Source: Pseudarthrobacter sp. (GTDB lineage Bacteria > Actinomycetota > Actinomycetes > Actinomycetales > Micrococcaceae). From it: DNA of 64,000 nt. The translations under genes and the position numbers were made by a program. The notes under the pieces are model-generated. The model did not search any database. It was not told the origin of the DNA and was given only the letters and a program-made list of their open reading frames with translations. The stretch's first letter is position 1. Each line of letters opens with the position of its first letter. Below are positions 1,843 through 52,565 of this stretch, one piece after another. Location: positions 124,001 to 188,000 of the forward strand of contig JAPSJV010000001.1 in the NCBI GenBank assembly GCA_031178005.1. Direction: 5' to 3'.

Positions 1843-4500
1843 TCAGGCCTCCGTGGGCAGGTGGTCTCCGATCAGTGCCAGGTTCTGGATGGCGGCCAGT
1901 CCGAACTGGGCGGCATCATTGGTGGAGACCGTCCGGGCCTCCTCTACCGGCAGCAGGGTCAGCGGCGGATGGATGGTCTGGCTGGTGAATGCGACCGAAG
2001 GATCAAGGTGTTCGCCGCCCACCGTGAAGCTCTCCCACGCCTGTACGGCCAATTCGGGATCGTTCAGCCGGGCTGCCGCGTAGGCAGTCAAGCGGCTGTG
2101 TGCCTGAGTCAGATAGATCCCCTTCAGCGGCTGGCCGACTGCCTCCCGCTGTTCCTCCGGAGCTGCCAGGAAGAGCCGGCAATACTGCAGCCAGGCCCGC
2201 TCGAAGTCCGGATCCGGCGCCAGGTCAAGCAGCTCGCTGCAGATTTCCACCAGGCCGAACACCGCACTGAGGTGGGAGACGCTGATCCGTTCCCGTCCGG
2301 CGTCGAACCTTCCCTTGTCCAGGTCATACAGGGCCTCACCCGTCAGGAAGCCGTACTTCAGGGCGCCGATATCCGCCATGGTCCCCAGCAGCCGGTCCCT
2401 GGAGCGCGGGTTGCCCGTACGTTCCCAGTCCGTGAGCCAGGTGGCGGCCAGGGATCCCCAGTCCGTGCCAAGCCCCACACCCAGGGCGTTCCGGTCCGGC
2501 CGGTACGTGTCCGCATCCGGACGGACTTTGCGGACAGGGTCCAGGCCCAGGAAGTTCTGGTCGCTGTCCACCAGCTCGGTCAGCAGATCGCCAGTGCGCT
2601 CATCCGCCGTGAGGTAGTAGTAGAAGCGGCGGTATGCAGGTGTGCTGATCCGAAGCTGCTTGGCGCTGCAGCCCCAGTGCTGGACATTGTGCCGCGTGCC
2701 CAGGCCGCGCCACGGGCCCAGGTGGTAGACGTCCACCTCTCCCGTGTGGCGCGTCATTGCCTCCACAAACCGGAAAACATCGGCCCGTCCTGATCGCAGG
2801 TACATGTACCAGAGCCACAGATCCGGCGAGAGTTCCGAGTTGTCCCAGGCATATCCGCCGACGTCGTACCGCCACACGTGCCGGTCGGCGTCGTAGGTGT
2901 GCATCACGTCGCCGTAGTTCCAGAAGCCGTACCAACGGCGCTGTTCCACCTGGCCGGTGTAGAAATCGAACAGGAAATCCAGCTGGTCTTCCAGGTCTGA
3001 GCGGGCGGGTGTTGAGCGGTCCGCCGGCGCCCAATCACCAAAAACACCGGCGGCGTGCAGCGAGTCGGGGCTGGCCTGCAGCAGGGGCGGGTTGGCCACG
3101 GCGGCGGCGTCAACGGCCAGCGACCCGGTGGTGGGTGTGGCCTCGTAGGCGAACAGGGTCAGCTCGTGGGTGCGCGCGATGCCAGTGGGGCTGCCGAACC
3201 CGGGCTCGTAGTCCTCGTAGGTGATTTCCAGGCCGTCCAGCTGTTCTTCGAAGGTATCCTGGCCCAGGCCGTCGTGATAGAAACGCAAGTCCATCGGCTG
3301 GGCCTCGGGGGAATAGAGCCAGGCCGTGACCGTTGCCTCGTCGGTCGCGGCGCCGCGGATATCCAATTGCCCCGGGTGGGACTGCCAGAAGTTACGCACA
3401 CCAACTCCCAGCCCGCCGTCGGGAGTGCTCAGGGAACAGAAGCCCCCGGCGCGGGTGCCCCCGCTGATGCCCACCCAGCCATGTCCGGCGGCGGTGCGCT
3501 TGCGCAGTTCAAATCCGTCCGCCGTGAGCTGGGCCAGCGTGAAGTCGTTCCACGCAGGAATGAGGTGCAGCCGGGTGGAGACTTCAGGGTTCCATTCGGC
3601 CACTGGTAGCGTTGCCTGCCCGGAGACCTGTGCATCGCGGACCGCCTGCCCGGGATCGCGGCGGAGCCCGGTGAGGCCACGGACTCCCTCCGCGAGGAAG
3701 CCGCCGTCGGCTCCCGCAATGCGGACGTGCCTGTTGTGCAGATCGGCTGCGAGGGGGACGGCGAACCGCACGCCAAGGCCCGCCAGGAAATCCTGCGCGG
3801 CGTCGCCGTCGTAGATGAAGCTGTGGACCATGCGGATGCTGGGGGCACCCGCGTGGAAGTAAAACCTCACCACAAACGGCAGCCAAACGCGGTCACCGCC
3901 GTTGTCTTGGCGGTGCTGGCCTTCGATTTTGACGACGGCGCGGACGGGGCCGGCCTGCTCAACCGTCAGTGAGGCCACCCGTCCCGTGAAGCCACCCCTG
4001 GTGACTGTCCCCGTCTCTGACGCCGGCTCCTGCTGGAGCAGGCTGACCAGCCGGGCGTCCGTGGCCACTACGGCATCGCCACGGGACAAGGTGCGGAAAA
4101 GTGCCGGTCCGGTCCGGTCCATCACCATCGTGGTGGCCCCGGTGGAAACGGTGACGGTGGCAGCCTCCTCGGTAACCGTCACCCGGGGTGCGCCTGGCTC
4201 TGGGGAGGGGGCGCCGCCGTCGTTCATCACCTGGTAGCTGACCGACGGCGATGCGGCAGCCGGCAGCGCGAGTCCCGCCCACTTCAGGGATCCGTCGGGC
4301 CAGGTGGCGAGTGGCCAGGCCTGGCTGGCAACGGGAAGTCCTTGGGCATCGCGGACGGTGAGTCCGGATGCGTCCGCGACGATCCCACGGGGAAACGGCA
4401 TGCCCCACGTGGTGCCGCCGCTGAGTGTGGCGGGAGCGCCGCCGTCGATCCAGTTCACCTGGGTGGTTTTAGTCAAGGTCTGCAGTGTCCCGTCTAGCAA
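1843..4500 (-). CDS. Exo-rhamnogalacturonan lyase family protein (PL26, PcRGLX/YetA-like)
   Basis: This 885-residue protein matches the three-domain layout of PcRGLX/YetA-like lyases. An N-terminal RIFT-barrel region is at about residues 10-100 (GMPFPRGIV, PLATWPDGSLKWAGL). A central beta-sandwich follows to about 430, then a C-terminal alpha/alpha-toroid with RRWYGFWNYGDVMHTYDADR, WDNSELSPDLWLWYMY and HNVQHWGCSAKQL. Family members cleave rhamnogalacturonan I backbone ends by beta-elimination. No signal peptide is visible, so the enzyme probably acts on imported oligosaccharides. The TTG start is uncertain; a downstream GTG near VNWIDGG is an alternative. No pectin transporter or regulator lies beside it, but two LacI-like operators lie just upstream (4567-4590). 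Confidence 0.85.
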   Translation of the reverse strand: MLDGTLQTLTKTTQVNWIDGGAPATLSGGTTWGMPFPRGIVADASGLTVRDAQGLPVASQAWPLATWPDGSLKWAGLALPAAASPSVSYQVMNDGGAPSPEPGAPRVTVTEEAATVTVSTGATTMVMDRTGPALFRTLSRGDAVVATDARLVSLLQQEPASETGTVTRGGFTGRVASLTVEQAGPVRAVVKIEGQHRQDNGGDRVWLPFVVRFYFHAGAPSIRMVHSFIYDGDAAQDFLAGLGVRFAVPLAADLHNRHVRIAGADGGFLAEGVRGLTGLRRDPGQAVRDAQVSGQATLPVAEWNPEVSTRLHLIPAWNDFTLAQLTADGFELRKRTAAGHGWVGISGGTRAGGFCSLSTPDGGLGVGVRNFWQSHPGQLDIRGAATDEATVTAWLYSPEAQPMDLRFYHDGLGQDTFEEQLDGLEITYEDYEPGFGSPTGIARTHELTLFAYEATPTTGSLAVDAAAVANPPLLQASPDSLHAAGVFGDWAPADRSTPARSDLEDQLDFLFDFYTGQVEQRRWYGFWNYGDVMHTYDADRHVWRYDVGGYAWDNSELSPDLWLWYMYLRSGRADVFRFVEAMTRHTGEVDVYHLGPWRGLGTRHNVQHWGCSAKQLRISTPAYRRFYYYLTADERTGDLLTELVDSDQNFLGLDPVRKVRPDADTYRPDRNALGVGLGTDWGSLAATWLTDWERTGNPRSRDRLLGTMADIGALKYGFLTGEALYDLDKGRFDAGRERISVSHLSAVFGLVEICSELLDLAPDPDFERAWLQYCRLFLAAPEEQREAVGQPLKGIYLTQAHSRLTAYAAARLNDPELAVQAWESFTVGGEHLDPSVAFTSQTIHPPLTLLPVEEARTVSTNDAAQFGLAAIQNLALIGDHLPTEA

Positions 4501-50884: not shown

Positions 50885-52150
50885 TCAGCTTACGTTGGCC
50901 GATGCTGCCGCCCGCTGCTGGGCCAGTTTGATCTCCAGCACGGCGTCCATCGCCTGCTGCACGCGGTCGTTCGCGCCCGCAAAACTGAAGTCCTTCTGGG
51001 CTTCGTCCAGGTACTGCAGCGCTTCCTCGGCCTCACCAGCTGCCTTGAGCGCCTTGCCCAGCAGCAGAGACACCTCACCTGAGGTGTGGCGTGCCAGGGA
51101 TTCACGTTCCGCGTGGATTTCGCGCAGTTTCGCCACGGCGCCGTCGATGTCCCCTGTGAGGTAGAGCCAGCGGGCCCTGATGAATGCCACTTCCAGCTGA
51201 TCCGTTTTGTTGCCGCCAACGATGGACAACGCCAGCTCTGCACGCTCGATCGCGGACAGGGTTTCCGGCTCGACAATCCCGGAGGACAGCCGTACCGCGG
51301 CGGAAGCCTTGTTGAAGCGGGCCCACAGCTCAATGTCGTTTGCAGGGGACAGCATCTTCGCCGCCTGCTCGTGGTAGGTGATGCCGGCCGGATAGTCATG
51401 CCGCATGAATGCCACGTTGCCGATGACCCAGGCCACCTCGCCGGCCAGTTGCGACATGGATTTTTCGTCCACCTGCGAATTCATGGACTGGCAGAAGTCC
51501 CAGGCCTCTTCCAGCCTGCCGCTTTCCGCCAGCGCGCCGATGAGGGCACGGTGCGCACCAATGATCAGCGTGGACCCCTGCGGGAGCTGCTCACAGAGAC
51601 GCACCGCCTCCATGGCATGTTCGACGGCGGCACTCAGGTGGCCCTGCCCCTGATGGGCTGCGGCAAGCATCTGCCGGGCGCGGACTCCCAGACCGGCCGA
51701 TTCCTTGGCCATAGGGTGGTCAAGAAGGTGCTCCATGATGTTCTGGCATTCCTGCCATTCGCCCTGCTTGATCAGGCATTCGGCCTGCATGTACATCATG
51801 TTCCACCAGGCGCTGGTGTTTTTGCCCTCCAGAGCGATCTGCGCCGCGGTGGCAGCGTGGGTTGCGGCCAGCGGATAGTCGCGCAAATCCCAGGCCTGCC
51901 GTGCATACAGTCCGGCCAATACGTATTCGGCATCACTCACGGAGATTGGCTGGCTCCAAGCCTCAAGGGCCTTCGGAGCCAGTTCCAGCCGGCGTGCAAG
52001 CTCTTCTATGACGTCCGCCGTAGGCTCGCGCCGGCCGCTCTCCAGGAGGGATATATAGCTGGGGGAGTATAGGCCTTTTCCGAGCTCGGCCTGTGTCAGT
52101 CCGCGATCAAGTCGTTCAGCGCGGAGCTTCTCCCCGAATCCATTCCCCAC
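50885..52150 (-). CDS. XRE-family regulator with TPR domain (RRNPP-like receptor candidate)
   Basis: The 421-residue protein has an N-terminal XRE helix-turn-helix (about residues 6-62; KLRAERLDRGLTQAELGKGL, YSPSYISLLESGRREPTADV). The rest is helical repeats of TPR type. At least seven units are readable: MMYMQAECLIKQGEWQECQN, ARQMLAAAHQGQGHLSAAVE, RALIGALAESGRLEEAWDF, VAWVIGNVAFMRHDYPAGIT, ARFNKASAAVRLSSGI, AFIRARWLYLTGDIDGAVAK and LLLGKALKAAGEAEEALQYL. This layout is that of RRNPP receptors (NprR, PlcR, Rap relatives). A GTG start has GGAGG eight bases upstream. It is divergent from a 60-residue pre-peptide gene, its likely ligand source. Confidence 0.88.
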   Translation of the reverse strand: MGNGFGEKLRAERLDRGLTQAELGKGLYSPSYISLLESGRREPTADVIEELARRLELAPKALEAWSQPISVSDAEYVLAGLYARQAWDLRDYPLAATHAATAAQIALEGKNTSAWWNMMYMQAECLIKQGEWQECQNIMEHLLDHPMAKESAGLGVRARQMLAAAHQGQGHLSAAVEHAMEAVRLCEQLPQGSTLIIGAHRALIGALAESGRLEEAWDFCQSMNSQVDEKSMSQLAGEVAWVIGNVAFMRHDYPAGITYHEQAAKMLSPANDIELWARFNKASAAVRLSSGIVEPETLSAIERAELALSIVGGNKTDQLEVAFIRARWLYLTGDIDGAVAKLREIHAERESLARHTSGEVSLLLGKALKAAGEAEEALQYLDEAQKDFSFAGANDRVQQAMDAVLEIKLAQQRAAASANVS

Positions 52151-52190
52151 GGGATTTCCTCCTTTTAACAAACAGACTTTCAGCCAATGC

Positions 52191-52221
52191 TTGACAGTGC
52201 CTGTGGAAAACATTTTACAAT
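52191..52221 (+). promoter_or_regulatory. Promoter of the repeat-peptide gene
   Basis: TTGACA (52191-52196) and TACAAT (52216-52221) are good -35 and -10 hexamers separated by 19 bases, a long spacing. TTTACA at 52214 gives a 17-base spacing as an alternative. ACATTTTACAATGT is also a short dyad over the -10. Long spacing often marks activator-dependent promoters. Confidence 0.5.
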
Positions 52222-52256
52222 GTATGTCAACAAGGGCGGTGCTCGCCTCTGTAACG

Positions 52257-52271
52257 AATACGACTCGTATT
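52257..52271. promoter_or_regulatory. Perfect 15-base palindrome just ahead of the peptide gene
   Basis: AATACGA and TCGTATT pair perfectly around a central C. It stands 11 bases before the peptide ATG, directly ahead of its ribosome-binding site GAGGAA. It could bind the XRE-TPR regulator or act on the mRNA. Confidence 0.5.
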
Positions 52272-52282
52272 GAGGAACTCAC

Positions 52283-52465
52283 ATGTTGAAAAAGATTGCA
52301 GCCGCCGCCGTTCTGGCCGGGGCTTTGGCGTTCTCCGCTGCAGGTCCGGCGATCCTTTCTGCTGGTTCCGCTGCGGACATCACAAATGTCTCCACCGCCG
52401 TAGGTAACTGGCCTGACCCGATGAGCAACCCGCAGGCAGTTGGCAACTGGCCTGACCCGATGTAA
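52283..52465 (+). CDS. Secreted repeat peptide, candidate pheromone precursor
   Basis: The 60-residue protein begins with a Sec signal peptide: MLKK, a hydrophobic stretch IAAAAVLAGALAFSAAGPAI, and a likely cleavage after SAGSA near residue 30. The mature part contains AVGNWPDPM at residues 39-47 and again at 52-60, the second forming the exact C-terminus. The corresponding 24-base DNA units (52400-52423 and 52439-52462) differ at two positions, so the repeat was duplicated and kept. GAGGAA precedes the ATG. The gene is divergent from an XRE-TPR regulator. No modification enzyme or immunity gene accompanies it. A peptide signal is the best inference; a structural role is not excluded. Confidence 0.8.
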   Translation: MLKKIAAAAVLAGALAFSAAGPAILSAGSAADITNVSTAVGNWPDPMSNPQAVGNWPDPM

Positions 52466-52531: not shown

Positions 52532-52565
52532 AAAAAGAGGGCCTCCACAAGGAGGCCCTCTTTTT
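52532..52565. terminator. Bidirectional rho-independent terminator between peptide gene and tRNA
   Basis: AAAAAGAGGGCCTCC (52532-52546) and GGAGGCCCTCTTTTT (52551-52565) form a perfect 15-base stem around ACAA. Both strands end in a T-run. It serves the peptide gene on the plus strand and the tRNA on the minus strand. Confidence 0.9.

Follow-up and report, generated by a model that had tools for sequence, protein, structure and literature searches.

Does the divergent gene pair in the window, the whole 64,000-nucleotide stretch of a Pseudarthrobacter sp. genome analysed here, encode a peptide pheromone and its receptor? The earlier note had read it as an RRNPP-like signalling pair, and the comparative data support that reading through the linkage of the two genes in every genus member examined, a conserved repeat, the separate Trp-Pro (WP) peptides of 40 receptor clusters, and a branch of the receptor family that consists of TPR repeats only and lies beside signalling genes. 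We consider it probable that the pair is a peptide-pheromone module that works like the RRNPP systems, with binding, export and import inferred and without expression data.

The receptor gene (50885..52150, minus strand) has 421 codons and a GTG start, and lies divergently to the precursor gene (52283..52465, plus strand), which encodes a secreted-type pheromone precursor of 60 residues; the gene arrangement is as previously described. The receptor contains an XRE helix-turn-helix domain at residues 5-64 (51959..52138, minus strand; Pfam HTH_31/HTH_3, with HTH_3 at 8e-11) and matches several TPR models. Its residues 71-391 (50978..51940, minus strand) form a TPR superhelix with a putative peptide groove, as delimited by an AlphaFold model and a 24-row alignment (A1), and the model shows eight TPR-like helix pairs, in agreement with the at least seven repeats counted before. 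The helix-turn-helix part of the model is of low confidence (pLDDT < 50), so its assignment rests on Pfam. The flanking genes are purD- and purC-like toward the end of the receptor gene, and a tRNA-Pro and ABC-transporter genes past the peptide gene, all but the tRNA being named from reading the translations. A hairpin with a 10-bp stem and a 4-nt loop followed by five T (52537..52565, no strand assigned) was read by eye and is absent from the terminator scan; it is the probable terminator of the peptide gene.

The precursor begins with Lys-Lys and a hydrophobic stretch, and the signal previously claimed there is signal-like by hydropathy only. Both exact copies of AVGNWPDPM reported in the earlier note are present, including the C-terminal one, with the first core VGNWPDPM at 52400..52423 and the second, which forms the precursor C terminus, at 52439..52462 (both plus strand and conserved across orthologues). 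The repeat was analysed in a set of 215 copies from 79 named orthologues, collected by searching for WP, a procedure that makes these two residues invariant by definition. Within this set G, D and the second P show no variation, N deviates in three copies and the last M in seven, while synonymous codons are used at G, N, P, D and P, a pattern that bears out the suggestion of a selected protein repeat. The position preceding V/I is unconstrained (A, S, N, Y, T, M, R, G, F, K or L) and the linkers differ, and the constrained unit is therefore the eight residues [VI]GNWPDPM; the core of the nine-residue unit proposed earlier is conserved, but its first residue falls outside the constraint. Similarly, the two differences counted between the DNA units are correct over the eight-codon core, but there are three over nine codons. 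Repeats of the same gene share the V/I residue in 208 of the 214 pairs compared (mean 113.8 and maximum 134 over 2000 shuffles), and the last core residue shows no excess agreement (199/214 versus 200.4 by shuffling) because that position is nearly invariant. Precursors of the 79 named orthologues carry one core in three cases, two in 34, three in 24 and four in 18. Three orthologous peptide genes (L172, L201 and L176) stop shortly past the first core, so that only a single repeat is intact.

The peptide was detected in all 101 genomes of the genus that were searched (every best E-value <= 1.7e-9), and receptor orthologues with 75-100% identity are present in all 37 searched, the source genome included. 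Of 319 relatives in GTDB 220, the best 80 were examined as named loci, and in every one of them the two genes diverge (79 pairs detected by script, and L176 by reading); these 80 relatives belong to Arthrobacter, Pseudarthrobacter and Paenarthrobacter. A lack of conservation of the WPDP repeat in orthologues had been named as grounds for rejecting the proposal, and this is not what is seen. At one locus in the genus (L318, genome G015) the paired peptide has a single SGNWPYPV unit and the receptor is the least similar orthologue (75%), a possible new pherotype.

An alignment of 79 intergenic regions reveals a conserved block between the two genes (52191..52231, no strand assigned), a candidate for the operator and peptide promoter, that reads TTGACA...ACATTTTACAATGT...TGTCAA. 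It contains TTGACA (52191-52196) and, at a spacing of 19 bp, TACAAT (52216-52221), which is overlapped by the inverted repeat ACATT-N4-AATGT (52210-52223), and it is closed by TGTCAA (52226-52231). A sigma-70 scan, which permits only spacers of 16-18, does not report a promoter in this region. When up to three mismatches are allowed, each of 31 genomes has a single copy of a 23-mer from the region, located at the pair, and the reversed 23-mer used as a control has zero matches in the same genomes. As judged from its sequence, the region fits an autoregulated divergent promoter.

The receptor has matches (E <= 0.001) in 107 of 197 Micrococcaceae genomes, of which 88, in 17 of 32 genera, are strong (E below 1e-26) and the other 19 are weak and confined to the helix-turn-helix part by our own count. 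The flanks of 60 divergent family members together with the genus loci yielded 119 receptor genes in 117 loci; five loci (L090-L094), all paired, duplicate others, leaving 114 distinct genes of which 93 are paired. A divergent ORF with a signal-like segment and a Trp-Pro motif is present at 98 of the 119 (68/88 XRE and 30/31 TPR-only genes), a number that differs from the script count of 99 in that the L133 ORF was assigned by reading and a doubtful ORF at L114 was treated as unpaired; L149 is scored as unpaired although a WP peptide lies ~1.6 kb from its receptor. By the same criteria the other three flanks of these genes contain 1, 1 and 6 WP ORFs, and in a background of 30 loci there are 32 matches among 294 genes, 27 of which are receptors, leaving five among at most 267 others. 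The search for TPR-HTH regulators with a divergent WP ORF that the earlier note had called for thus finds such ORFs well above background, and at 12 loci with weak TPR matches there are zero divergent signal-like WP ORFs. That the precursor is a chance ORF is ruled out by its presence throughout the genus, the constrained repeat and the low background of WP ORFs.

When the receptors are grouped at 80% identity, 60 clusters result, with a paired peptide in 11 of 31 XRE clusters and in all 29 TPR-only clusters. The last motifs of the 40 cluster representatives have the consensus [VI]-G-x-W-P-[NDHY], and paralogue motifs include GNWPDPM, GIWPNS, VGEWPH, VGDWPH, IGDWPN, IGWWPN, GGLWPY and NNNWPF. 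The final WP is six or fewer residues from the precursor C terminus in 25 of the 40, there are internal copies too, and the mature form is not known. Two TPR-only receptors in tandem (L122 and L123) each have their own, different WP peptide upstream, apparently a duplicated and diverged pair.

Six receptor residues (W241, N245, W276, N280, R287 and W328) are invariant in alignment A1. N245 and N280 lie in the model in helices 233-249 and 273-289, the first helices of two TPR units, and both are present in all 68 paired XRE receptors and all 31 TPR-only receptors, and in none of nine distant XRE-TPR proteins (six from genomes of other families and three from Streptomyces plasmids). Bacterial pheromone receptors hold the peptide backbone through asparagines. 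Over the whole domain, conserved large residues are not significantly enriched on the first (A) helices of the units (15/137, versus 7/123 on B helices; p = 0.18). The proposed check for co-variation of receptor and peptide did not demonstrate any: the V/I character changes only six times on the receptor tree, too few for the purpose, and shared ancestry therefore accounts for much of the V/I agreement. The absence of an adjacent WP peptide from 20 of the 31 XRE clusters is the main fact opposing a simple one-to-one model, and it partly realises the objection, raised in advance, that homologous regulators might occur without the peptide gene. Most of these 20 solo clusters keep the groove asparagines (N245 in 18 and N280 in 17), so that solo receptors may read peptides made elsewhere.

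Relatives outside the Micrococcaceae are few. In a second family of the order, one receptor (L257) has a divergent peptide with three copies of VGGSWPT and another (L258) a peptide ending in DTWPA, and two more (L320 and L321) have no divergent WP peptide; N245 is present in three of these four receptors and N280 in none, despite the divergent WP peptide in two of them. In a genus whose Streptomyces-like label is our inference, one genome encodes a secreted-type peptide with two DIGWP units (L306, 709-894) divergent from an XRE-TPR gene. The peptide of a second genome has three units (L326, 756-1136), and the receptor piece encoded divergently to it shares 71% identity with the L306 receptor. 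The L326 peptide is followed by an ATP-grasp-like gene, assigned by reading. Given that the DIGWP peptide is found in only two of 101 genomes of this genus and that the L306 receptor lacks both groove asparagines, convergence is possible. No divergent WP peptide was seen at L307, L308 and L310 in the same genus or at L309 and L314 in another family, and a locus from a third family (L311) has a single NWP near the end of its peptide. A phage origin was rejected, as no phage record matched and there was no relative in viral contigs, and so was a plasmid origin, the matches listed (25 of 34 plasmid records) comprising only XRE-TPR proteins of 26-29% identity, nearly all from Streptomyces; three of these Streptomyces-type plasmid genes were examined, and their divergent regions lack a WP peptide.

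The receptor family has two branches, one of XRE-TPR proteins and one of TPR-only proteins that lack the XRE part. Their alignment to the window receptor begins near residue 75 of the latter, and the stretch inspected ahead of the match, up to 45 residues long, shows no obvious extra domain. Within ~2 kb, TPR-only loci have a HAMP-GGDEF-EAL relative in 23 of 29 cases, a DUF7793 protein in 14 and a REC-GAF-histidine kinase relative in 10, compared to none of 31 XRE loci for each. These genes recur as a signalling neighbourhood, in which the TPR-only receptor lies near DUF7793 (SpoIIAA-like) and HAMP-GGDEF-EAL genes (L296, L299, L303, L304 and others), with the REC-GAF-histidine kinase on the opposite side at some loci. 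Gene neighbourhood, and nothing beyond it, suggests that the output of this branch is cyclic di-GMP.

Might the peptide be a ligand of the TPR receptor without reporting density, conveying instead secretion capacity, self versus non-self, diffusion or an intracellular action? Seven of 12 secondary peptide-match loci that were fetched (L150, L151, L152, L153, L154, L155 and L161, in seven genomes) have an ORF that lacks a signal segment and repeats the same core in 2-4 copies (starts inferred; the L153 ORF lies at about 2025-2234, minus strand), and the ~4 kb surrounding each ORF contains no match to the receptor. The V/I/T residue of the leaderless gene is that of the secreted gene in all seven genomes (G002, G027, G035, G058, G072, G081 and G028), and the G028 gene shares the rare T in two of its three repeats. 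Such genes could yield the same core intracellularly, possibly as a private or antagonistic peptide, and the hybrid histidine kinase genes adjoining the TPR-only branch in 10/29 loci also accord with a non-density ligand. The leaderless genes are nevertheless restricted to seven genomes and the paired peptides keep a conserved signal-like segment, and we regard this explanation as unlikely. The leaderless genes and their matching residue also count in favour of the main reading, and a core made inside the cell is most easily understood if the receptor is also intracellular.

A second possibility, which we find quite unlikely, is that the peptide is an effector with antimicrobial, cell-wall or interspecies activity, and that the XRE-TPR protein merely regulates its gene and senses something else. 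Divergent XRE regulators frequently control one neighbour, and arrays of up to eight repeats, as occur in family precursors, would suit a secreted product; solo receptors also exist. Furthermore, the 23-mer operator search of 31 genomes finds no sites besides the pair itself, so no output regulon is visible, although shorter motifs were outside the search. A simple regulator-target relation nonetheless fails to explain the TPR-only receptors, which seem to lack a DNA-binding domain in the part compared and yet have a peptide in 29/29 clusters. The constraint is also limited to the short core with linkers varying freely, and no modification or immunity gene was seen beside the window pair by eye. 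A toxin-antitoxin-like pair, with a small hydrophobic peptide toxin under an XRE antitoxin, is very improbable: a small ORF with a hydrophobic segment does adjoin an XRE regulator, and 11 of 24 members weakly match an XRE antitoxin-type HTH model, but the pair is retained in every genus member searched, the signal-like N terminus is followed by tandem repeats, TPR-only partners exist, and the matches listed include zero from phages and only distant Streptomyces-type XRE-TPR proteins from plasmids.

How closely the pheromone reading can be tied to the RRNPP family is a separate matter. Among RRNPP proteins the receptor fold best matches NprR (Z 23.0, rmsd 5.1 over 320), RapI (22.7) and Rap:CSF (22.4), and the NprR and Rap entries (Z 21-23) rank below several eukaryotic TPR proteins in the same search. 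None of the 18 Pfam and 9 NCBIfam matches of the window receptor is RRNPP-specific, all being generic HTH/TPR or unrelated; no RRNPP-specific model was matched by 24 family members (among the top 25 of 42 Pfam families, the top 25 of 29 NCBIfam families and 19/19 PHROGs); and a PDB sequence search gave 29 matches, generic TPR and designed repeat proteins, without an RRNPP chain. These libraries presumably contain RRNPP-specific models, and the negative result covers model-library matches but not profile-profile comparisons to alignments of Rap or NprR. Two features of RRNPP systems are present, namely a TPR superhelix receptor with an N-terminal HTH, as in the transcription-factor branches, and an adjacent small gene for a secreted-type propeptide (80/80 named orthologues and 98/119 of the family, the signal by hydropathy only), and another, recognisable sequence similarity to Rap, NprR, PlcR, PrgX, Rgg or AimR, was not found. 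With no family-specific sequence match and an unspecific fold match, the system is called RRNPP-like, and homology of its receptors to those of RRNPP systems has not been shown; the window pair is an RRNPP system in design, without demonstrated membership by sequence.

The best reading is thus an RRNPP-like intracellular pheromone system of the Micrococcaceae that works like Rap/NprR-Phr and has rare relatives in other parts of the class. The observations are of a gene for a secreted-type precursor with [VI]GNWPDPM repeats in divergent orientation to an XRE-TPR gene, a conserved inverted repeat that overlaps a promoter-like site in the intergenic region, and many paralogous receptors with their own variant WP peptides. 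We infer that the precursor would be exported, probably by Sec, that proteases would free a short core from every repeat, and that an oligopeptide permease would bring the core back into the cell; the source genome encodes seven SBP_bac_5 binding proteins, which are candidate importers only. The core is predicted to bind the concave TPR groove (W241/N245/F248, W276/N280/R287 and R325/W328) and may then alter the hold of the XRE domain on the shared promoter, such that expression of peptide and receptor would depend on the amount of peptide outside. TPR-only receptors may relay the same kind of signal to the neighbouring HAMP-GGDEF-EAL protein and so to cyclic di-GMP. On a broader view, to which we lean only slightly, the Micrococcaceae have evolved or strongly elaborated a [VI]GxWP[NDHY] language of their own, with XRE switches, TPR-only control of cyclic di-GMP turnover, solo listeners and unlinked leaderless genes for an intracellular core, and VGGSWPT and DIGWPxP variants, found next to related receptors, reaching other actinobacterial families.

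With a conserved multi-copy family of peptides and receptors, the phylum Actinobacteria would have a language of ribosomally made peptides and, as proposed here, a route from these signals to cyclic di-GMP; the predicted eight-residue signals can be synthesised and tested directly. As far as the accessible portions of the sources extend, linear peptide pheromones sensed by TPR proteins in the cytosol are described in Bacillota, and most actinobacterial signals are small molecules or cyclic or modified peptides (PMC10075063, PMC4748050, PMC13220807). In the portions available, the openly licensed literature, preprints excluded, describes neither this motif nor pairs of this kind in Actinobacteria, and a subscription paper or preprint could exist.

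Known signalling in Actinobacteria is likewise cell-cell signalling within the phylum, and employs gamma-butyrolactones and cyclic or modified peptides, whereas the available part of that account does not describe linear peptides of ribosomal origin that are sensed by TPR receptors in the cytosol (PMC4748050). Tandemly duplicated propeptides of Bacillota provide several pheromone units per precursor, according to the part of the source at hand (PMC11343458), and differ from the present genes, which have up to eight copies of one core and belong to another phylum. The resemblance to NprR-NprX and PlcR-PapR lies in an HTH and TPR receptor adjoining the gene of a small secreted-type precursor with a putative short signal toward its C terminus, and NprR is also the top-ranked RRNPP fold match to the window receptor. 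The gene order of those two systems is not known to be divergent, unlike that of the window pair, which further differs in its tandem repeats with a W-P core, its actinobacterial host and the absence of an RRNPP-specific sequence model among the family matches listed. The TPR-only branch resembles Rap-Phr in its pairing of a TPR receptor without HTH with a secreted-type peptide, and it lies beside signalling genes. It differs in that no extra N-terminal domain is apparent in the stretch inspected, up to 45 residues, and Rap acts on phosphorelay proteins whereas the neighbours here are GGDEF-EAL, DUF7793 and hybrid kinase proteins, on which an action has not been shown. Overall, these gene pairs of soil bacteria related to Arthrobacter look like a peptide language similar to one familiar chiefly from the part of the bacterial tree around Bacillus and Streptococcus.
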